Of a stretch of DNA of 64,000 nt, positions 1-12,635 are shown one piece after another (position 1 is the first letter of the stretch; each line of letters opens with the position of its first letter). The notes beneath the pieces are model-generated. The model searched no databases and was not told the DNA's origin. It saw only the letters and a program-made list of their open reading frames with translations. A program made the translations under genes and the position numbers. Source of the stretch: Tribonema minus (Eukaryota; Sar; Xanthophyceae; Tribonematales; Tribonemataceae); NCBI GenBank assembly GCA_017506865.1, contig JAFCMP010000490.1, forward strand, positions 558,001 to 622,000, written 5' to 3'.

Positions 1-2
1 CG

Positions 3-3000
3 AGCGTTGACGACAACGAGTGGGCCGGCCTGGTCACACCAACGTTGCATCATAGTGGGGGTTCCACTACGCTGGCCGATGTTGCGGAGGACGGATTGGA
101 CAGCTTGGGGCGTGACGAGGCAGCGGTGGACGCGGCGCGTGTGACGGCATACATCAATGGCCTCATCTCAGCGCTCTACACGCCAGAGAGTCGTACGCGC
201 GGCCCCGGTGCCAGCGATGCTGCCATCTTCCAGTACTATGCTGAGGTGGTAGCGTTGGAGGCGCAGCTACTTCCGCTGACCCAGCAGGTCGAGCCAGGCA
301 AGCTGCGCGGTTCTGTGCATGCTGACGTGCACTCCCTTTTCCGGTGCAAGCTGCGCTCCGCCCGCGCCACGCGCTGCTCATTCATCAAGCGCAGTCTGTG
401 GGACTCTGGTGCGTCCGTCACTGCTATTTCACAGCGCTGCTATGAGCGCCTCGTGGCTAGTGGTGCCATTGACAGCGCTGACGTCCAGAAGCTAACTGCC
501 CCTCGAAGCATTGCCGGTATTGACACGAGCGCTGCCCCGCAGAAGGTCACCACCATTGTGGCTCTGCACTTTGGCGCATTCGGCGCGCATGGCCTTTCCG
601 CACCCGTCATGGCGCTCGTGGTGCCGCATTTGCCGTACGACTTTATTCTGGGGCGCGACTTCATCAACCGTCACCCCTGGACTGCGGTCAACACACCCTT
701 GTACGGCAGTAGCATCAACGACTCCGAACCACCTGGTAGCACCGAGTACAGGTTCAGCAGCACCCCTCCACCTGCCCAGCCCACACGTAGTGACTCAGCG
801 GCCTCCCCATCTCCCTCAACCCCGTGCTACGCGTACGACACGGACAAGCAGTGGGTCGCTGTGGTGCGCGTGGACGCGAATTCACCGGAGACACCTTCAG
901 AGTCCACCTTTCCTGTGTGGATTCAGGTTATGGAGGCAGACGGCGTGACACCAGTGCAGGCCTCGGCGGAGCAGATGGTGCAGGTTCTGGTGACAGCGGC
1001 ACACGCAGGTACTATTGCCAGCACAGAGCTCGCTACGGGCACCTTTGCCAAACCAGTGCTACTGCAGCAACGCGCCAACGCTTCCCTCAACCTGCCACGT
1101 GGCACAGTGCTCGGCAAGGCGATCCCGCTACGCAGTGTACCGGCCAGCAGCATGCAGCGCGAGCACGGCGAGCGCCCGCGCGCGGTCGAGATCTACTGCG
1201 GCGCCTGCGGTATGGCTGAAGGTCTACGCGACTACACCGACATCGCGCTCGCCATCGACCACGAGCAGCGCGCACTAGACATCTATGCCGCAAACCATCC
1301 CGGCACGCAAACATTGCGACGCGACATGGCGCTGTCGGAAACGCGGCGCGAACTCATCGCGGCTATGCGGCGCCTGCAGGCGCAGGTACTCTTCGGCGGA
1401 CCACCATGCACGCGCTACTCGTATGCAGGCACGCGGCTGACTGCACTTGGCATCCAACACCTATATTACATGCTGGAGATTGCCATGGGCGCGGACTGCT
1501 GCCGCCTGCTTCTGCTAGAGAACGTTCCCGGCTTGCAGAGCGCGCCGGAGCTCGCAGAGTTCTTGCGCTGCGCTCGCCACGGTGGTTTCACGCTACAGGA
1601 GGCATTGTACGTACGCGGCGATGACGCGCACCTCGCGCAAACGCGCCACCGCGTGTTCTATGTGCTAGCGCGGCCCGGCAGCGGCGAGCACGACAGCGCG
1701 CGCATGCGCGCGTCCATGGCGCACGCGCGCGAGCTGCTGGCCTTCGCCAAGGCTGGAGCCGCGTACGAGTCAGTGCGTGAGGTCACCGGGGACGTTCCCG
1801 ACAGCAGCGGTCAGCAGCGGCAGTTCTTCACGTCAGTTGGCCGCAACCGTCTCTCCAAGCAGATCTACAGCATGGACGGACCAGCGCCGACTACGCGCGG
1901 CAGCACTTACCGCCGCGACCCCAAGCCCACTGGTGTACAGTGCACCATGCGTCCTATGGATGCCACTCAAGACCCGGCCGAGTTTGCGCGCTCTGAGCAT
2001 CTGCCGTGGTCAGCACTGCGCGCAATTCACAGCTTTCCTGCCACGTACTACAAGTGGGACGCGCCGGAGGGCGGCGACATTGCCGCATATGCGCAGTACC
2101 TTGCCAATGCGGTGGCGCCGCGCATGGCAGAGCTGGTTGGCGACATTTTGCAGCAGAGTGGCGTCTTCCATGATGCTGCAGAACAAGCGGCGCGACCCCT
2201 GCCACCCGAGATTCAGACGCTGATCAACACCGGCACGCACGTCGCTTTCGGCACGTACGGCGTCAAGCTCGCAGCTGCAGCAAGGCAGCGCATGCGCGAC
2301 ATGGCGGCAGGTGCCGCTGCGTCGGCATTGCCTCGCGCGCCCGACAAGTTGCGCGCAGCAGCAGCAGCAGCGCCAGCAGCAGCGGCAGTGGCGGCAGCGG
2401 CGCCTGCGCCGGAGGCAGCAGTGGCGGTACCGACGCCAACTTGTTCGCACCACGCGCGCGTGGCTCCTGCCGCGGCGGCACCTGTGATGACGCCGGCTTG
2501 GACTTCAACGCACGGCGCGCGCGCCGCGGCCTCGGCGGCCGCGGCGGCGCCGGCGACAACATCATCATCTGCGCGCAGCACTGAGACGGTGGTCCCCGCC
2601 GCAGCAGCAGCTGCGCATGCCCCGTCATTGCCCACTTCAACGCGCGCTGCAGCGGCGGCGCCTGCCGCGGAGGCGGCACATGGCACCTTTTCGGGGGGGG
2701 GTGAAGGTGGTGGCAATGCGCTCAGCGGCATCTTTTCGCTGGACATGCGCACGGAGGAGTGGCGCCACACTAGCGACGCGGACACTGACGCGGACGCTGG
2801 AGCGGCTCCCATGGACACGGCGGCGGTGCGCGAGGCGCTGCAGCAGCAGCTGGGTGAGTCAATCTCCTTTGAGCCAGAGCAGGGGGATGCAAAAGTACAT
2901 ATACCTGATAGTGGTGGCGTTGCTTTGGGGACTTATGCTCACGTAGACCCCAAGGTGAACGCAGCACTAGACAAGGCTCGCGCGTGCTTGCCAGCTCATA

Positions 3001-6000
3001 TGTTGGCAGTGCGCGTGGACCTTGAGGGGTGGAATGCGGACCAAGTGGCGCGGCTGTGCTTCATGTTGGCAGAATACGCCAGCAAAACCTTCTCTAAGGA
3101 TAAGTGGGATGTAGGGTTCTGTGATGCCCTGCCTTTCCGCCTTGACTTAAAGGAGGGCACTATGCCGTGCCACGACCGCCCCTACAGGTACTCCCCTGCA
3201 ATGACGGCACTTATCAAGGTTGAGATTGACAAGCTGCTTGCGGCCGGCATCATACGACCCTCTTTGTCCAACTGGGCGTCCCCTGTAGTGGCAGTGCTCA
3301 AGCCAGACGGCACAGCACGAATCACTGTTAACTACAAGAAGCTCAACGCCCAGACTATAGTGCCTCAGATTCCCATCCCCAACATTGAAGACTTGCTCAA
3401 CAGTCTTGGTGGATCCTCTGTCTTCAGCACTATGGACATCACAAGCGGCTACTTCACCTCTGCCATCAGCCCTGATGCCATCCCCCTCACCGCTATGGTG
3501 ACCTCGTTCGGCCTCTATGAGTGGTTGCGCTGCCCCCAGGGCGCTGCCGGTACGCCTGGACATTTTACACGCCTCATGCAGACAGTGCTCGCGGGCCTTA
3601 ATCGCGTGCAGCCCTACATTGATGACGTCATAGTGTCCAGCTCATCCATTGATCGGCACCTCAGCGACCTTAAGGGTGTCTTTGCCCGTTTTGATCAGCA
3701 CGGTATGAAGTTAGCCCCTGCCAAGCTCCACATAGGCTGCAAACACGTCAAGTTTCTGGGCCACATCGTCGGCGTAGATGGCATTAGGCCAGATCCTTCT
3801 AAGGTTCAAGCCCTGCTCGAAATGCCTGAGCCCAGCAACCTCTCGCAGCTACGTGCGTGGCTAGGCCTCGCCAACTACTATCGCCGCTTTGTGCGCAGCA
3901 TGGCTCAGCTAGTGGCTCCTCTCACCGCTCTAATGGCGAAAGGCGCGGAGTTCAACATCAGCAGCGAGCAGCAGCGCGCCATGCGCGCCGTCAACGAGGC
4001 TTTGGCGCTGCATACCGTCATGCGCTACCCCGACTACGCTGCTGCCGCCAGCGGCGCGCGCCCCTTCATCCTCGCCACCGACGCCTGCAAGGAGGGCTTC
4101 GGCGCTGTGCTGTCACAGGCTGACGCCAACGGCGTCGAGCAGCCCATCGCCTTCACCTCCCGCGCGACGCTGCCCAATGAGCGCAACTGGTCTACCACGG
4201 ACTTGGAGGCCGGCGCCATCGTCAACGGCATCAAGAAGTTCCGCCACATGCTATGGGGCACCCCCTTCACGCTCTACACCGACCACCGCGCCCTGCAGTA
4301 CATGGAGTCTATCCGTGAGCGCACCGCGCGCGGCGGGCGCTGGGCAGAGTTCCTCTCAGCGTTCAACATCAATGTGGTGTTCAAGAAGGGCAGCGCTCAC
4401 GGCAACGCCGACGGCCCAAGCCGCAATCCACTTCCCGCAACTGCCGCGGACGCCGCCGAGGCGACGCGCGAGCGGCTCCTGCACGCATACGGCCTGGAGG
4501 CCGTTGATGCCCACCGCCTTGAGGCGCTCGCCACCGGCGAGTACTTGGAGGTTTGCATGCTCATTGTTGACGCATTGCAAGGGGGCGGCATGGCGGAGAT
4601 AGCTGCTATGTCGGAGATGGCGGGCGTGGCTCCGGGGGCGTGCGATGCGTTTGCCCACCATGAGGAGCTGGGGCGGCTTACCCCCGGTGACTGGCAGCGT
4701 GAGCAGTGCGCGGATAAGCAGCTCGGCTCGCTACACGCCTTCTTGGCGGACGGCGCGCTGCCTCACGACGCGGCGCTTGTTACGCAGGTGAAGCAGTGGG
4801 CGCAGCACTGCACTCTGCGCGCTTGTGGCAGCAGTCAGCTTCTAGTGCGCAACCCCCCTGACACCCCCAACGTCACGCAGATTGTTGTGCCCCGTTCCTT
4901 GCGCGCCCTTGTCCTAGATGCCTTTCACGGTAGTGCATGGGCAGGCCATCAGGGCGTTAAGCGCACTTTAGAGCGTGTTCGTGCTCATTGCTGGTGGCCC
5001 AGTTGGACGCGCACAGTCAGCTACTGGGTTAGTCATTGCTGGCCTTGCCAGGCGTACAAGAACACTGGTAAACTCTCGCGCCACCCCCTCGTTTGGCGCG
5101 AGAGACCCTCCTCCCCCTTTCACACCATTGCTATTGACCATTTCGGCCCGCTGCCCCTCAGTAACCGCGGCCACGCCTACATCCTTGTAGTCATGGACTT
5201 ATATAGTGGCTGGGTGTGGTGTTATCCTATCACCCCAGACAACTTCAACTCTGTTGGCACGGCTCACATCTTAGTCAACCAGCACAGCACACTCCATGGC
5301 ACACCTGCCAAACTCCTGAGCGATAGAGGCAGCATTTTCATGTCGGCCCTTGCACGCGCATTCTATCAGCAGATGGGTACGCGCAAACTGAGCACTACCG
5401 CATATCACCCTGAGTGTAACGGCAAGTGCGAACGGTTCATGCAGGAGCTGGCACAAATGTTGGCAATGACAGTCAATAATGCAGCGGGGGATTGGCCAGA
5501 CTGGCTGCCTCATATTGCTTTTGCGCACAACACGGCACACAACCGCGCAACCGGCGCGACTCCATACCTACTTGCCACCGGTCGGGAGGCCCACTACGCC
5601 TTACATCTCCTTCTAGGCAGGTTGCAGAAGCCCATAGCGCCCCCAGGCACGAGCCCCTCCGTAGCTGAGCTTGTACAGGAGCTTACGCAGCGCCAGCGCG
5701 CCGCACACGATGTTGCTGCGCAGCGACACGCGCTGCGTCGCGCCCGTGTGCTGCGGGACAACGAGGCGCTCGCGCGCGCCTTTGGCTTGCGCACACACTA
5801 TGCGGCAGGCGAGCGCGTGTGGTACTACCATGCGCCGCGCACGCATGCTGCCGCCGGCGACATCGACCTCAACCCGACTTCACCTACGTTCGGCACGCCA
5901 CTTCGGACGTTGTTCAGCAAGAAGCTGCTCGACCGCTGGCAGGGCCCCTATAGGGTCCTCGCCGTTGGCCCAAGCGTCTTCGGCGACAAGCCGGTGCAGT

Positions 6001-6860
6001 CCGGTGTACTGGTCATCGACATGAAGGAGGGCCCCACGCGCGTCACGCGCCACCTGGTCAAGCTGTGCCGTGACCCCACTGACGACAGCGAGGGGCCGCC
6101 CGGGACACTGCCGGCCGGTTTTGCCCGCTACCTGCTCGCCAAGCATTGGCATGGCCGATCGCCCGGCTCACTCACTGCCGATGATGTAACCGCCGACCCT
6201 GAGCGTCACGGCGTGGAGGCCGTGATGCGCCATCGCCTTGTTGCGGAGGCGCGCGGCCGCGGGCAGCGCCTGCAGTACCTCGTGCGCTGGGAGGGCAACG
6301 TTGCCAACTCTTGGGAGGACGCATTCAACATGGACGCGTGCCCTACGGCGCTGCACGAGTACTGGACTACGCTGAGCCGCGCCGCCGACTTACGCGATGA
6401 CTTCGCGATCGACGGCGCCGGCACGGAGGTCGTCAGGAGGGAGCTGCGCAAGGCGGAGAAGCAGCGCGGCATCGGAGGCGTCTTAGCTGTGTGTGGGCGG
6501 GGGTCATACGAGCTCGCGCCCGGTGCGCATGTTGTCATGTCGGCACCCAGTAGCAGCATATTGCTGAGCACTGCTGTCAGGGGTATGCAGATCATGGTAG
6601 CCTATCAAATGACTACTTCTGACGGCGCAGTGTACACACAGTGGCATGAGGGTGAGGTCGTGGGCGTAGTCCAATCCGCTAGCCGCACACGCAAGCAGGC
6701 ACCGCGTCTCAGGGTGTTCTGGGTTGCTGAGGGCAAGTACTCGGTACTGCCGCTTAGTGCTGACACGTATGGCACCGCGCCTACGTCACCGCAGGGCACG
6801 TGGTTTCTGTGTGGCAGCAGGGCGCAGGTCAATGCGCTTGAGGGCAACGCAGTGCAGTAG
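3..6860 (+). CDS. Ty3/Gypsy pol polyprotein with embedded C5-cytosine DNA methyltransferase (5' partial)
   Basis: One frame is open from the left window edge to TAG at 6858-6860. Domains in order: a retropepsin (active site DSGAS near 400-415, then ILGRDF near 650); a DNA cytosine-5 methyltransferase at about 1170-2150; an alanine-rich linker at about 2270-2700; a reverse transcriptase (YIDD at 3615-3626); RNase H (acidic residues in ATDACKEG, TDLEAG, TDHRAL, NADGPSR); an integrase with an HHCC finger near 4925-5050 and a D,D,E core (AIDHFG, LLSDRG, KCERF); a GPYR motif near 5940; and a chromodomain-like tail at about 6210-6360 (YLVRWEG, SWEDAF). The methyltransferase keeps motif I (VEIYCGACG, 1185), the catalytic PPC (Cys codon 1407-1409), ENV (1518), QTRHR (1638) and motif X (AYAQYLANAV, 2085). 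Gag must lie left of the window. The absence of stops or frameshifts suggests a young copy. The role of the methyltransferase is inferred: it may methylate element DNA or host chromatin. Confidence 0.93.
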   Translation, partial: SVDDNEWAGLVTPTLHHSGGSTTLADVAEDGLDSLGRDEAAVDAARVTAYINGLISALYTPESRTRGPGASDAAIFQYYAEVVALEAQLLPLTQQVEPGKLRGSVHADVHSLFRCKLRSARATRCSFIKRSLWDSGASVTAISQRCYERLVASGAIDSADVQKLTAPRSIAGIDTSAAPQKVTTIVALHFGAFGAHGLSAPVMALVVPHLPYDFILGRDFINRHPWTAVNTPLYGSSINDSEPPGSTEYRFSSTPPPAQPTRSDSAASPSPSTPCYAYDTDKQWVAVVRVDANSPETPSESTFPVWIQVMEADGVTPVQASAEQMVQVLVTAAHAGTIASTELATGTFAKPVLLQQRANASLNLPRGTVLGKAIPLRSVPASSMQREHGERPRAVEIYCGACGMAEGLRDYTDIALAIDHEQRALDIYAANHPGTQTLRRDMALSETRRELIAAMRRLQAQVLFGGPPCTRYSYAGTRLTALGIQHLYYMLEIAMGADCCRLLLLENVPGLQSAPELAEFLRCARHGGFTLQEALYVRGDDAHLAQTRHRVFYVLARPGSGEHDSARMRASMAHARELLAFAKAGAAYESVREVTGDVPDSSGQQRQFFTSVGRNRLSKQIYSMDGPAPTTRGSTYRRDPKPTGVQCTMRPMDATQDPAEFARSEHLPWSALRAIHSFPATYYKWDAPEGGDIAAYAQYLANAVAPRMAELVGDILQQSGVFHDAAEQAARPLPPEIQTLINTGTHVAFGTYGVKLAAAARQRMRDMAAGAAASALPRAPDKLRAAAAAAPAAAAVAAAAPAPEAAVAVPTPTCSHHARVAPAAAAPVMTPAWTSTHGARAAASAAAAAPATTSSSARSTETVVPAAAAAAHAPSLPTSTRAAAAAPAAEAAHGTFSGGGEGGGNALSGIFSLDMRTEEWRHTSDADTDADAGAAPMDTAAVREALQQQLGESISFEPEQGDAKVHIPDSGGVALGTYAHVDPKVNAALDKARACLPAHMLAVRVDLEGWNADQVARLCFMLAEYASKTFSKDKWDVGFCDALPFRLDLKEGTMPCHDRPYRYSPAMTALIKVEIDKLLAAGIIRPSLSNWASPVVAVLKPDGTARITVNYKKLNAQTIVPQIPIPNIEDLLNSLGGSSVFSTMDITSGYFTSAISPDAIPLTAMVTSFGLYEWLRCPQGAAGTPGHFTRLMQTVLAGLNRVQPYIDDVIVSSSSIDRHLSDLKGVFARFDQHGMKLAPAKLHIGCKHVKFLGHIVGVDGIRPDPSKVQALLEMPEPSNLSQLRAWLGLANYYRRFVRSMAQLVAPLTALMAKGAEFNISSEQQRAMRAVNEALALHTVMRYPDYAAAASGARPFILATDACKEGFGAVLSQADANGVEQPIAFTSRATLPNERNWSTTDLEAGAIVNGIKKFRHMLWGTPFTLYTDHRALQYMESIRERTARGGRWAEFLSAFNINVVFKKGSAHGNADGPSRNPLPATAADAAEATRERLLHAYGLEAVDAHRLEALATGEYLEVCMLIVDALQGGGMAEIAAMSEMAGVAPGACDAFAHHEELGRLTPGDWQREQCADKQLGSLHAFLADGALPHDAALVTQVKQWAQHCTLRACGSSQLLVRNPPDTPNVTQIVVPRSLRALVLDAFHGSAWAGHQGVKRTLERVRAHCWWPSWTRTVSYWVSHCWPCQAYKNTGKLSRHPLVWRERPSSPFHTIAIDHFGPLPLSNRGHAYILVVMDLYSGWVWCYPITPDNFNSVGTAHILVNQHSTLHGTPAKLLSDRGSIFMSALARAFYQQMGTRKLSTTAYHPECNGKCERFMQELAQMLAMTVNNAAGDWPDWLPHIAFAHNTAHNRATGATPYLLATGREAHYALHLLLGRLQKPIAPPGTSPSVAELVQELTQRQRAAHDVAAQRHALRRARVLRDNEALARAFGLRTHYAAGERVWYYHAPRTHAAAGDIDLNPTSPTFGTPLRTLFSKKLLDRWQGPYRVLAVGPSVFGDKPVQSGVLVIDMKEGPTRVTRHLVKLCRDPTDDSEGPPGTLPAGFARYLLAKHWHGRSPGSLTADDVTADPERHGVEAVMRHRLVAEARGRGQRLQYLVRWEGNVANSWEDAFNMDACPTALHEYWTTLSRAADLRDDFAIDGAGTEVVRRELRKAEKQRGIGGVLAVCGRGSYELAPGAHVVMSAPSSSILLSTAVRGMQIMVAYQMTTSDGAVYTQWHEGEVVGVVQSASRTRKQAPRLRVFWVAEGKYSVLPLSADTYGTAPTSPQGTWFLCGSRAQVNALEGNAVQ

Positions 6861-7017
6861 TGTAATGTTCAACTTTGCATGTGATAGTCGTGCATAGCAT
6901 ATGTGCGCTGGGTGAGAGACAGTTAGCATATGGGCTGTGTGCAAGTCTTGCACTTGTGTTGTGTTGTGGATACACATAGTGAAGTCATGGTTGCTTCCCT
7001 GTCGTCGGGCTTAGCAA

Positions 7018-7110
7018 AGCCCTAGGGGGGGTGACTGTGGTGACACTGGGTTGTGTCACCTGTTTCAACGGTCAGTTCTTCAAGGGCCGTTCCGAGACAG
7101 TTCTTGACAG
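7018..7110 (+). other. Candidate polypurine tract and truncated 3' LTR of the Gypsy element
   Basis: A run of seven G at 7025-7031 is followed at 7032 by TG, the usual first dinucleotide of an LTR. The segment up to 7110 contains short internal echoes (TGACTGTGGTGACACTGG). No matching 5' copy is in the window, so the LTR call cannot be confirmed. The same bases could be the 3' flank of the opposing Copia element. Confidence 0.35.
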
Positions 7111-9255
7111 TTACAAAAGTTGAGGTTGGCGATCACTTCGGAGTGAGCGATAGCCTGATAACACACACACACTTGCTCGAGTGCTGCTGTGAGTGTCAGT
7201 GTGCTGTCTGCTCTGTTTGTCAGTGCTCACGTGCAGTGCAAGCACATCAGCCGGCTTGGGCAGTGGCTTGGTGAAGCCGTCTGCGTACTGCTGCTGTGTA
7301 CACACGGCCGTGACATCGATGACTTTGGCTGCCACTTGCTGTCTGGTGTAGTGGTATTTGACGCCAATGTGTCTAGTACGCTGCTGCGCGTAGGGGTTGG
7401 ACGCCAGCTGTAGCGCCCCGGAGTTGTCCTCGTACAAGGGCATGGGCTGCTGGCCACTCACCCCCAGAAAGGCAAGCAGGCCCAGAAGTGGAACCGCCTG
7501 TTGTGACGCGTGGTACAGCGCCACATACTCCGCCTCCGTAGTGGAAGTGGTGACGAGGCCCTGCTTCTTGCTGCGCCATGCGACCGCCGCTCCCGCGAGC
7601 ATGAAGACAAAGCCCGATGTTGAGCGCCTGTCGACCGGGTCGCTGGCGAAGGACGCGTCCGCATAGCCGATCAGTTAAAGCCGCTTGCTGGGCCTGAACG
7701 TGAGATTGTAGTCCTGTGTGCCCTTGAGGTACGCCAGTGCGCGTTTGGCGTTGCGCATGTGATGCTGGCAGGGGCTGCCCATGTGCTGAGCCAGTTGAGC
7801 AACTGTGTAGGCGAGGTCGGGGCGCGTGCTCGTTGACAGGTAGAGCAAGCCCCCGACCATGCTCCTGTAGAGCTCAGCTTGTGCAGGCTCCAAGGCTACT
7901 GAGGTGATGAGCTTGTCACCTTGGTAGACGGCCGGTGTTGGCGCGGGGTTGCAGTTAGTCATGTTGAACCTGCTGAGCAGTGTGGCCGCATAGCTGTACT
8001 GGCCAAGGCTGATGGTGTGGCTGGTGGTGTTGTGAGTGATGTTGATGCCCAAGAACCACTTGAGCTCTCCTAGATCCTTGATGGAGAATCGCTGCTGCAG
8101 CTTGCTGGTGATGCTGGTGATGAGCTGGCCGTTGCTCGTGCCGGTGAAGAAGATGTCATCGACGTAGATGAGAACTTCAAGGATGACGCCGGTCTCGGCG
8201 TCGAACAAGACGCACGGGTCGTAGTCGCAGCTGGTGAAGCCCTGCTGTAGTAGGTAGTCTGACACTGTACGATGCCAGGTGCGGGGACTCTGCTTGAGTC
8301 CGTAAAGGCTCTTGTTAAGCCGTAGCACAAATTGAGTGCCGTCTGCTGCGTGCTGCTCGTACCCCTCAGGTTGCTTGACGTAGACCTCCTCCTCCATGTA
8401 ACTCTGGACGAAGGCGTTGTTGACGTCGATATGGCGAAGCTGCCAGCCGTTGTGAGCTGCCAAGGCGATGACGGTGCGCAGCGATGCCATGTGCATTACT
8501 GGCGCGAAGGTATGCTGGAAGTCGACGCCGGGCTGCTGTGAAAAGCCCTTTGCTACGAAACGAGCTTTGTGTACCACTACCTCCCCCAGCTCGTTGCGCT
8601 TCTCCTTGAACAGCCACCTAGAGCTTACCACGTTCATGCCGCTGGTCCGCGGCACCAGCTCCCAGGTGTTGTTGTCGATGAGGGCGTCGTACTCCTTCTG
8701 CATGGCTGCACGCCACTGTACCGATACTACCGCCTCGCCGTAGCTGCTAGGCTCCGATGAGCTGGTTTCAGCTGCTGCTGCGAACGTTTCGAAAGCGGTA
8801 ATGGTACTGGGCTCCTCGGAGCTGACGCCAGCAACAGCTGCGAATGCCTGAAAAGCATTGAGGTCGGCGCGCTTGGCCGCCAGCTCGTCGCGTAGGGCAG
8901 CTCGCGTCTGGGCGCGAGTGACCGGCCCACGTGCGGGCGGCAGTTGAGGTAGCTGCGGCTGAGGATGGTCGTTTTGCTGCTGCTGCGGCGGCGGCGGTTG
9001 CAGTGGTGGCTGCGGCGGGGCTGCGGGCTGCTGCGTCGCGTCTGCAGGCTGTTGCTGAGGTAGCGGCTGCTCTGGCTCTGGCATGCCGATGGTGATGTAC
9101 TGCTGTTCAAGCTGCACACCGGTGGGAAGTGCAGGCGCGTCGCGAGGGTCCTCGATGAATGTGACATGACGCATCTCTATGATGCGCCGCGTAGACTCGT
9201 TGTAGACGCGGTAGGTGTTGCTCTGCTCCGCGTAGCCGAAAACCTCCCCCGCCAT
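7111..9255 (-). pseudogene. Copia reverse transcriptase and RNase H, interrupted by a stop
   Basis: From 9255 the frame reads FGYAEQSNTYRVYN, then a proline/glutamine-rich linker, then RT (NNTWELVPR, SSRWLFKEK, KARFVAKGF, HIDVNNAF, LNKSLYGLKQSP, IYVDDIFF) and the start of RNase H. TAA at 7675-7677 falls between PSKRL and LIGYADASF. After the stop the same frame continues to 7111 with RNase H motifs (TTEAEYVAL, YEDNSGA, YADGFTKPL). One nonsense mutation therefore splits an otherwise good RT-RNase H. Confidence 0.88.
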
Positions 9256-11414
9256 GCCCTAGGGCCAAGCTTACCCTCCCTGGCGCCTGGCTCCAGGTGC
9301 ACGTACGCATGCGCCCCAAACACCCTGAGGTGCGCAAGGTCCGGCACCTCGTTTGTCCATGCCTGATAAGGCGTCATGCCACCGAGTGCCCGCGTTGGAG
9401 AGCGGTTGCGGATGTAGTTGGCGGTCTGCAGCGCCTCTGCCCACAGAAATGGGGGCAGCGATGTGTCGTACAGCATGCACCGAGCCATGCCGAACAGGGT
9501 GCTCCACGACCGCTCTGCGACGCCGTTCTCCTGCGGCGTGTACGGCGCTGAGTAGTCTGGAGTGATACCCGCGCTGTTGCAGTAGTGGATGATGTCCTCG
9601 CTGATGAACTCGCGAGCGTTGTCGAAGCGGATGCCGCGAATGTGGATGCCCTGTTTTGCCATGGCGAAGACGAGCTTGTGCGCGTTGTCGGGAGCGTCGC
9701 TCTTGCGCTTGCAGCAGTAGATGAAGCTGTAGCGCGTGCTGTCGTCCTTGAAGCCTTGCGCATAGCTGTAGCCTTGTAGCGACGCAGGCGTGATGGGACC
9801 TGCGAAGTCAGAGTGGAAGTGACTGCCGCGAGTTGAAGTACCTGCTGGCTTCGATGCTGCTGCTGCTGGCGGCTGATGACGCGACTTGGCGAGGGCGCAG
9901 GTCGAGCAATCCGGAAGCTGCGCCTTGCTGACTGTCGTGCTGATGCCTGTGCCGCGGTCCTTGGCCAGGGCCTGTACGTCCCTCCAGTTGAGGTGACCCA
10001 ACCGTCGGTGCCAAAGTTGAGCTTCGGCAATTGTAAGTACTGCCGCCAAAGTCTCGATCGGCTGCTTGCGGCGAGACGGAGGACGTAGGCTGATGTAGTA
10101 TAGGCCGTTGCGGAGCGTAGTAGGGATGAGCACCTTCCCTTTGCTGATGCCTTGAACCTTCTTGTTGCTGAACTCGAAGGTGCCACCTGCAGCCTCGAGC
10201 CGCGAGTAGCTGATGAGGTGCGAACCTGCACCTGCTGCGATGACCGAGTCGGTGAACTTGACGTCGGTGTAGCTGCCGTTCTTCGTCCGTGCCGACAGCG
10301 TGACATCTGCGATGATGTCAACTTCGCACAAACCTCCGACTCCTTTGATCTTCTCGCTGCAAGGCCGCTTGTTGGACAGGGCGATGCTAAAGTCCCAAGG
10401 CAGGAGTAGAGGATCGAAGACGTACCGATTGCTGCCTGTGTCGATGGCAGCTTGGAAACCGTGCTGGTCGCCATTGGGGTGGCTGCTGTTGATGGCGAAG
10501 CCGAGTGGGCCATCTTGTCCAGCCGAAGAGACATCGTAACCCTCTGATCGTCGCCCGTTGCGATTGCGCCGCTCACGAGCGAGCAGCTCGCATTCGCTGG
10601 TGGAGTGCGTGTCACTCTTGTGTCGATGACACCACTTGCCGCTGGCACCAGCGCTGCTGCTGGGAGTGCTGGGGCGATGGCGCTGGCCCTTCTGCTGCTT
10701 CTTGGCGTGGCAGTTGCTGGCCTTGTGTCCGAACTTGCCGCAGGAGCGGCAGGAACCTCGGAATGCCGGCGTCGAAGCTGAGAGGGCTGTGAGAAACCCC
10801 TGCTCCCGCTGGCTGTCGTACTCCGTCCGGAGCGCTTGCTGGATGTCTGCAAAAGACATGGCGCCGTTGACCATGATGATCTTCTTCACGGTGTCGTAGG
10901 CGCTAGGCAATCCCCGGAGGATCTGCCCGATCAACGTGGTGTCCGTGATCGTTTCTCCTAAGGCGGTCAGCTTCGCCTTCAGGTTCTGCAGCCGCATGAG
11001 GAAGTCGTCCGTGTCCTCGCCTGGCTGGAGGGAAGTGCGTTGGAACTCGCTGGTCAGGGCCATGGTGCGAGCCCGCGTGTTGCCCTCGTACTTGGCGGTG
11101 AGTGCCCGCCATGCTCCGCGACCATCTGCTGGTGGCCCTGCGGATTGCCGTGTCACTGCGTGCGCAGCGCTGGCTGTGAAGCTGATTGATCCCACCAGAC
11201 AGCCGAAGAAGTGTTGATTCATCTTGGCGTAGTCGTCCTTGGCTTTCAGCTGCGTCTCCTCTGTGTCGGAGAGCCGGAAGTTGAGAAACTCTCCGGAGAA
11301 CCCCTTTGATGCCATGATGGCTAAGAAGAGGTAAGAGAACTGGTCCCAGTTCTCGTGTTGCCCATCAAACTGTGGCAGCGGCACCTTGGTGTCCATCCGC
11401 ATGGAGGCCATCAT
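9177..11414 (-). pseudogene. Copia gag-protease-integrase part of the polyprotein
   Basis: The frame starts with ATG at 11414 and runs 745 codons. It shows a UBN2-like Copia Gag, a CCHC zinc knuckle (CRSCGKFGHKASNC), an aspartic protease motif (AIDTGSN), and an integrase with an HxxxH/CxxC finger (LWHRRLGHLN, CSTCALAK) and a D,D,E core (HSDFAGP, RFDNAREF, ENGVAERSW). It runs out of the correct frame just after GPRAWRG, where the RT frame takes over one base away. The overlap of about 80 bases and the G-run at the switch point to a single-base indel. A programmed frameshift is not excluded. Confidence 0.88.
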
Positions 11415-12635
11415 AACCTGACGGAACTATAACACCGTGGCAGAGTAGGACACCCGAGGTGGACCCAACGCAAAGTGCAGAATAGCACTAGACCAGGGCA
11501 GGCTGGTATTGCAAAGAAGTGATTATTGTGCAGGAGCGTGAGCAAGCGGAGAAATAGCCCTGAGTCAATGGCGGAACAGTACCGGACTGGTGCTGGAACA
11601 TGCAGTGGTGGACTAACAAGAGAAACTCCCAGAATGGGGAGAAACCTGTGTAGGTATGCATGCACATGCAAGTAGGGTATGTAGGTATCATACTCCGTCA
11701 ACTATAGTTACAACCACTGTTGCCTACAAACTACAGATACTTGGCAGCAGTACATCAACCAGCAGCAGACCTGAAGCTACAACAAGCAGCACTGTATGGT
11801 TCTAGGTCTTCGCTCCTTTGTCAGACACAGCAGCAACTGTGTGCAAGTCAACCAGTTGAGGTAAAATGTCAGCACAACAACCAGATCGACCGCGAAGATC
11901 CAAGGCAGCACGCTGTCAAGGTGCAGTCCCAGCTCCAGTAGCAGCTCGCCAGTAGTTATAGATCCCCATCGCCTCAACGCTGCTAATCAAGCCGGACTTC
12001 AGCAACAGCAGCAGCAATATGGTCTGCATCACAGCGGCTTACCTGTGGTGCAGTCCAAGCGCTCAGCCAAGTCCGAGATCCATTGCTGCTGCCAGATAAA
12101 GAATGAGTAGGCACGCTCAGGCACAGCAGCAGCAGCTCACCTGCACCAGCTGAGGTGTCGTGATGTGGAGTCTTCACGGCGGTCGCTGCTGCTGTCCTGG
12201 CACAAGGCGCCACGCGCTGCTGCTGTCCTGCAACAGCAGCACCTCGACGGCCCTGTTGTTGCTGGGTAGCACGGCGTCGATGGCTGTGGTGGCAGGGTGG
12301 TGGCAGTGAAGTGCTGCCATGGTCCTGACACACCAACGGCATTTCCGCTGCAATCTGTAGGCACCACCAGTAGGCACGTGTTGTCTGCACGTTGGAGGCA
12401 TGCCACACCGATGTCTCAGGGTACCGAGAGATAAACGTTTCATGTCCCCCAACACCAAGGCCGCCATGCCGTCACCTGTGAATAAGGACACCAAATTCCA
12501 TACTGTGGACCCTTGATAACGAACAGCTTCGTTTTGTTCACGCACACTATCCACAGGCGCACGCTGACACCGCCGCAGCAGTGCCCACATGCTACATGTA
12601 AATACAAACACATCAAGCGCTCACTGAAATGGTTG
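11415..12635. other. Non-coding stretch with scattered CAG/CTG runs
   Basis: I see no gene here. The left part is upstream of the Copia gag and should contain its leader and 5' LTR, but no primer-binding site or LTR boundary could be recognised. The part at about 11990-12280 is rich in CAG/CTG triplets, which keep several frames open by chance. Confidence 0.5.

Follow-up and report, generated by a model that had tools for sequence, protein, structure and literature searches.

We have analysed a window of 64,000 nucleotides from contig C490 (JAFCMP010000490.1, positions 558,001 to 622,000) of the xanthophycean alga Tribonema minus. The window begins inside a Ty3/Gypsy retrotransposon that carries a C5-cytosine methyltransferase (DNMT) domain in pol, and upstream contig sequence was used for the left end of the element. 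The element and the Copia element in which it is nested are described in Table 1.

Table 1. The DNMT-bearing Ty3/Gypsy element and the enclosing Copia element. Positions refer to the window; those preceded by C490 refer to the contig.
Feature	Position	Strand	Evidence
Whole Ty3/Gypsy element with DNMT in pol, 9208 bp	C490:556041-565248; window part 1..7248	+	LTR pair and 5-bp target duplication
pol open frame, stop-free	3..6860	+	opens upstream of the window at L009:6569
Aspartyl protease-like domain (PF13975/PF13650)	396..671	+	profile match below curated cut-off
C5-cytosine methyltransferase domain, 347 aa, motifs I to X	1158..2198	+	profile match, alignment, predicted fold
Motif I (SAM loop), one glycine replaced in this copy	1188..1214	+	comparison with other copies
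Motif IV, catalytic Pro-Cys	1404..1409	+	alignment A1
Motif VI, ENV	1518..1526	+	alignment A1
Motif VIII, QxRxR	1638..1652	+	alignment A1
Motif X region (ANAVAP)	2103..2120	+	alignment A1
Reverse transcriptase (RVT_1)	3297..3770	+	profile match above curated cut-off
RNase H (PF17919/PF17917)	3963..4364	+	profile match above curated cut-off
Integrase zinc-binding domain H2C2	4887..5063	+	profile match above curated cut-off
Integrase core (rve)	5115..5411	+	32.2 bits, below the cut-off of 32.6
Chromodomain	6213..6368	+	below cut-off, E 6.8e-5
Purine-rich stretch before 3' LTR, likely polypurine tract	7023..7035	+	sequence
3' LTR, 213 bp	7036..7248	+	2 differences from 5' LTR, C490:556041-556253
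Target-site duplication AGCCG	7249..7253	.	second copy directly left of 5' LTR
Remainder of Copia element hit by the Ty3 insertion	7254..11700	-	sequence, LTRs
Copia LTR	11419-11700	-	partner C490:555390-555671; duplication ACTAT on both sides

The order of domains in pol, protease, reverse transcriptase (RT), RNase H and integrase followed by a chromodomain, is that of chromodomain Ty3/Gypsy elements, and the 213-bp LTR pair with AGCCG at either end has the structure of an LTR retrotransposon. A preliminary description made from the sequence alone had proposed a DNMT captured between protease and RT of a Ty3/Gypsy polyprotein with an uninterrupted pol. Profile matches and the predicted fold bear this out, and the identity of the domain as a captured C5 methyltransferase is hardly in doubt. 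Motifs I, IV, VI, VIII and X occur in order, as had been described, although motif I is altered at one glycine in this copy. DIRS-like split repeats, as in Klebsormidium nitens, were ruled out, the second repeat pair being the LTRs of the enclosing Copia element. The latter lies on the opposite strand to the nested Ty3 element, its 282-bp LTRs show 4 differences, and it contains no DNMT match among the genome matches listed. From 12000 to 64000 the window holds only eight frames of at least 180 aa and several local repeats at 17-25 kb, and neither a tRNA nor an Rfam match at gathering score was found there.

The window copy looks non-functional, as its gag and primer-binding site are mostly deleted and the motif I glycine is replaced. 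Relative to a copy on contig C66, ~2.99 kb is missing, the deletion running from within the primer-binding site, most of which is lost, through nearly all of gag and leaving the zinc knuckle. Thus, gag and primer-binding site being taken as the mark of an autonomous copy, this one is not autonomous. Glycine occupies this position of motif I in each of the 6 further complete copies read from the 99% subfamily; its replacement need not be fatal, because the distant lineage D has leucine there. A functional element, as had been proposed, is not supported in view of these losses, of which those of gag and the primer-binding site could not have been seen because the window starts inside the element. 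The accompanying suggestion of a recent element fared better, as the two differences in 213 LTR positions support a probably recent insertion. Other copies with long open frames exist in the genome. In the C66 copy, which has LTRs of the same kind and AGCAA at either end, gag occupies 1118 codons from stop to stop and includes a zinc knuckle; one TAG closes it, and pol follows in frame. In both copies read, a single in-frame TAG followed by GGG separates gag and pol (L040:4424-4426 and, in L009, just before position 6569, at which the pol frame of the window copy starts), an arrangement which suggests a candidate for stop read-through.

The domain is abundant in the genome. A search with Pfam DNA_methylase yielded 378 candidates, 123 of them scored, and joining several match lists by hand gave 359 DNMT places, a rough figure which holds among the matches listed, may include pieces of one broken copy and has element context shown for part of the places. 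One place comprises DNMT matches within 1.6 kb on one strand; four rows representing stand-alone genes (C223 twice, C181, C523) and repeats or second pieces of counted places were excluded, and a fragment at C264:327 lies outside the figure, which becomes 360 with it. A search for the integrase H2C2 domain gave 433 candidates, 150 of them scored. For 119 of these 150 Gypsy-type integrases (98 in a first pass with a shorter DNMT list), a listed DNMT is found on the same strand no more than 9 kb upstream, while the corresponding controls gave 5 with DNMT on the opposite strand and 2 with DNMT downstream; 31 have no listed DNMT upstream. These counts rule out a one-off chimera, the outcome which the preliminary description had set against its own claim, as other copies keep the domain.

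DNMT is present in all twelve lineages and sublineages read (A, B, C, D, E, F, G, H, I, J, Jdel and K), of which A/B and J/Jdel are sublineages at ~64-66% identity, and a Ty3 lineage lacking the domain was not found among them. The sample is biased, because lineages other than J and K were picked from DNMT matches; J and K, chosen from the RT and integrase lists, respectively, as having no listed DNMT, both have one. In A to H and J the domain precedes RT. In Jdel and K, of which the DNMT stretch alone was read, integrases lie downstream by coordinates. Lineage I (L038) is arranged differently: the domain follows RNase H and precedes integrase, and a single stop codon separates its frame from that of integrase. 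This arrangement is suggested to represent a family, because five integrases, L038 included, have DNMT 1.1-1.8 kb upstream and there are eight further near full-length matches at 45-46%. Further DNMT groups, at ~41% to K, are found among the matches listed. An open frame of 6208 aa with a K-lineage DNMT and integrase was observed at C311 ~4021-8857, perhaps two elements in tandem.

Trees of DNMT (54 rows) and RT (20 rows) recover the same main groups: {A,B,C} with support of 100/99 and 100/100 in the DNMT and RT trees, respectively, protein P0003 falling inside the group in the former; {H,J} with 96/90 and 100/100; {E,F} with 100/99 and 97/100; and {D,E,F,G} with 94/91 and 92/94. The trees disagree at weak nodes, {H,J} joining {A,B,C} in the RT tree (80/82) but the others in the DNMT tree (86/87), and {D,G} is a starred group in the DNMT tree only. 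Combined, the trees show a DNMT history that runs largely parallel to that of RT. A result against a single capture is that the retroelement label changes three times in the free DNMT tree, with starred branches forcing two of these changes, and that a single change occurs in none of the bootstrap trees; here P0003, a close relative of A and B, is counted as an outsider. With P0003 included, a single retroelement clade is not rejected (AU p 0.502), the constrained tree being slightly better than the free one. In a tree of motifs I-VIII without J, the 16 retroelement rows form one side of a branch with support 52/91, which is not starred. Branches are long in I, J and others. One old capture of the domain would be compatible with these results, as the DNMT and RT trees agree in their main groups; two captures, with I apart, would also be possible.

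Conservation and substitution patterns suggest that the domain is maintained. All 12 sequences of alignment A1 share Pro-Cys, ENV and RxR without exception; the alignment covers eight lineages down to 18% identity and is without F, J, Jdel and K, of which K keeps Pro-Cys and ENV. The ratio ω was calculated by NG86 for DNMT and RT of copy pairs. DNMT values are 0.11-0.14 in D (four pairs, dS 0.01-0.14) and 0.23 in H, and, in deep pairs, 0.20 for A-B, 0.14-0.19 for C and 0.21 for E-F, with dS >1 in all three and saturated for A-C DNMT and E-F RT. Near-identical C pairs give 0.44-0.63 from few changes, and pairs of the decayed lineage G give 0.51-1.12. RT of the same pairs gave 14 defined values, 11 of which are 0.06-0.25, the others being 0.36, 0.46 and 0.72. 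DNMT diverges faster than RT, with identities of 64.3 vs 81.8% for A-B, 60.3 vs 82.5% for C and 62.3 vs 90.3% for E-F, and the faster change extends beyond the target-recognition region. Judged from these ratios, DNMT is under strong purifying selection in most intact lineages. A functionless passenger hitch-hiking with its element, a view to which the lineage G ratios and the damaged window copy lend themselves, is thus extremely improbable, since ω is low in D even at dS 0.01-0.14, catalytic residues are kept across deep lineages and every lineage read has the domain.

The active site is not conserved in every branch. Motif IV reads STRC in the copy read of J (L042) and SSC in that of F (L041), in place of PPC, and J has at least 21 full-length matches at 96-100%. 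In Jdel (L123, C214:53150-54100) the whole motif IV loop is cleanly missing and ENA replaces ENV, in a frame of 3455 aa. The Jdel sequence was read in C214 only; at least 27 loci, C214 included, give a match pattern of two abutting pieces without query residues ~79-102, the longest frame having 3455 aa, and the other 26 are known from this pattern. Matches to F, J and Jdel are all multi-copy. Many copies do keep the domain, but an intact active site is not universal, one multi-copy sublineage being without the catalytic loop. Over the rest of the domain J and Jdel differ with dS 1.46 and dN 0.22 (ω ~0.15, 299 codons), and the remaining Jdel domain seems to be kept for another reason, e.g. nucleic-acid binding or polyprotein folding. 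The value of ω does not date the loss of the loop, because it comes from one pair and is averaged over both branches.

These observations lead to the proposal that the main job of the domain is not catalysis but nucleic-acid binding, assistance to RT or polyprotein folding or spacing, methylation being secondary or lost in several lineages. The long-framed Jdel loci, the STRC and SSC sequences and the low J-Jdel ratio are all in its favour. A purely structural part would, however, have no need of the invariant Pro-Cys, ENV and RxR of alignment A1 or of the Pro-Cys and ENV of K, and the ratio carries the averaging noted above; for the group as a whole we regard the proposal as unlikely. A broader scenario remains speculative, and we incline against it: one old capture of a non-DNMT3 enzyme would have made DNMT a core domain of the whole xanthophyte Ty3/Gypsy assemblage, the domain would either have shifted once within pol, to between RNase H and integrase, or have entered by two captures, and a dead but selected pseudo-enzyme would be carried by at least one sublineage that is amplifying, so that a second, non-catalytic function in retrotransposition would exist.

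The type of enzyme was investigated by comparison with known structures and proteins. The best PDB match of the A1 profile is DNMT2 (E 1.6e-26), followed by M.HhaI (4e-20) and DNMT1 (1.2e-18); at E up to 1 no DNMT3 chain is found in the best 60 of 62 matches and DRM2 appears only at E 0.48. Another comparison of the domain gave no DNMT3 row among the 50 matches listed, and the trees contain no DNMT3 sequence. The element-borne enzyme therefore appears to differ in type from the published DNMT3-type ones. DNMT2 is a tRNA methyltransferase and CFT is a DNMT2-type motif. Methylation of RNA, whether that of the element itself or the tRNA that primes it, is accordingly suggested by the best PDB match, but this match is limited to the catalytic half, DNMT2 (3 rows, with P0058) forms a separate clade in the tree of motifs I-VIII, and a joint retroelement and DNMT2 clade is neither recovered nor rejected (AU p 0.143). 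With the window domain alone DNMT2 (25.2 bits) does no better than a prophage methylase (27.3 bits), and CFT was not seen by eye in the element domains. An RNA substrate is, thus, quite improbable.

Used as a query, region 385-735 of the whole frame gave no match at E up to 0.001, and the domain alone matched 11 proteins, comprising the close relatives P0002-P0008, P0012, which is a Tribonema minus protein holding a DNMT relic, and three more distant methylases. P0012 itself aligns piecewise to contig C30 of the present genome, with identities of 74-97%. A profile search matched 148 proteins, the best 120 of which were listed, and viral contigs gave 243 relatives, of which 80, at identities of at most 33%, were kept. 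Three stand-alone methylases of 367-390 aa (L001:1405-2574, L002:1459-2559 and L003, on C223 and C181) form one clade in the DNMT tree, and the two of them compared with PDB are nearest to M.HhaI. They possibly derive from integrated giant viruses; a passage of PMC13236599 describes xanthoviruses in Xanthophyceae. Another row, L004:1498-2088 (C523), is an exon of a probable host DNMT2 and clusters with human and S. pombe Dnmt2. A defensive role, in which the element methylase marks or harms invading DNA viruses, has a general precedent in a proposal excerpted from PMC6338049, and the three HhaI-like small methylases of maybe viral origin occur in the same genome. As the sequence gives no pointer to viral DNA as substrate and the domain tracks RT and integrase and not host genes, we consider this role very improbable.

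Elements of this kind are known. As far as the relevant part of PMC5890265 goes, element-borne DNMTs in print come from dinoflagellates and one charophyte, and a passage of PMC12344493 places them in streptophytes and dinoflagellates only. KnitGypsy-Dnmt3 of K. nitens resembles the present elements in having a C5 methyltransferase in Ty3/Gypsy Pol, and in being multi-copy, under purifying selection and intronless (PMC5890265, in part). It is set apart, in its published description as excerpted, by a DNMT3-type enzyme and DIRS-like repeats, whereas the Tribonema elements have ordinary LTRs and a PPC motif IV, occupy hundreds of places in many lineages of a stramenopile host and carry the domain at two positions in pol. 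SymbioDIRS-Dnmt3 and SymbioLINE-Dnmt of Symbiodinium likewise number hundreds in several subfamilies with conserved catalytic residues, the former with DNMT in Pol beside RT, but these are DIRS and LINE elements with a DNMT3-type or, in SymbioLINE, an orphan DNMT, in contrast to Ty3/Gypsy elements with an H2C2/rve integrase (passages of PMC5890265). The same source, in part, describes DIRS elements with a Dam-like methylase, an accessory methylase which acts on adenine and is structurally unrelated. An orchid Ty3/Gypsy element shares the possession of an accessory nucleic-acid-modifying domain, but this is an m6A RNA demethylase in a plant host, called recent in the passage concerned (PMC9289625). 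The claim of a new host group is limited, because, in a passage of PMC6338049, the hosts given for Ty3/Gypsy and DIRS elements that encode Dam or Dcm already include stramenopiles besides charophytes and red and green algae; this passage treats the two element classes together, as it does methylases of adenine and of cytosine, and does not identify a stramenopile Ty3/Gypsy element with a C5 methyltransferase. No report of such elements in Xanthophyceae was found in the open-licence literature, preprints excluded. The present case therefore belongs to a known kind, with another enzyme type, a large scale, two positions in pol and one dead branch. How a retroelement benefits from a methyltransferase becomes testable here, because the natural active-site-dead relatives provide a built-in comparison with elements of the same class, in the same genome, whose catalytic site is intact.

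Our preferred reading, at slightly below even odds (roughly 0.45), is that the window holds a decayed copy of an old and diverse Ty3/Gypsy group in which DNMT is a standard part of pol and methylates the element's own DNA. That the domain mainly serves such methylation in lineages whose site is intact is proposed tentatively, with some leaning to the contrary. DNMT would be made within Gag-Pol at a fixed ratio to RT, and the packaged enzyme would methylate CpG sites in the double-stranded cDNA or in the newly inserted copy. New copies would then arrive in the nucleus resembling the methylated repeats of the host, a resemblance that could reduce detection or damage and allow the elements to persist. 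In yeast, SymbioDIRS-Dnmt3 enzymes, which are of another type, methylate CpG, while KnitGypsy and SymbioLINE DNMTs gave no methylation, a result called inconclusive by the authors (PMC5890265, passages on these assays).

A CpG footprint is observed in the copies. In all six copy pairs compared, C-to-T change at CpG exceeds that at CHH by a factor of 2.3-3.8; three of the pairs are drawn from three D copies and so share sequences. Changes per site are 0.0072-0.152 at CpG and 0.0019-0.040 at CHH, CHG being near CHH. The footprint is no proof of self-methylation, because no control, such as a DNMT-free Ty3 element, separates host from self, and it may be explained as well by host methylation. Tribonema minus encodes DNMT5, CDCA7 and HELLS, according to a passage of PMC10538959. 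The coding part of the element is not CpG-depleted, with an observed/expected ratio of 1.0 vs 0.77 in window positions 12001-64000. Two of the four differences between the Copia LTRs are, by eye, CpG transitions.
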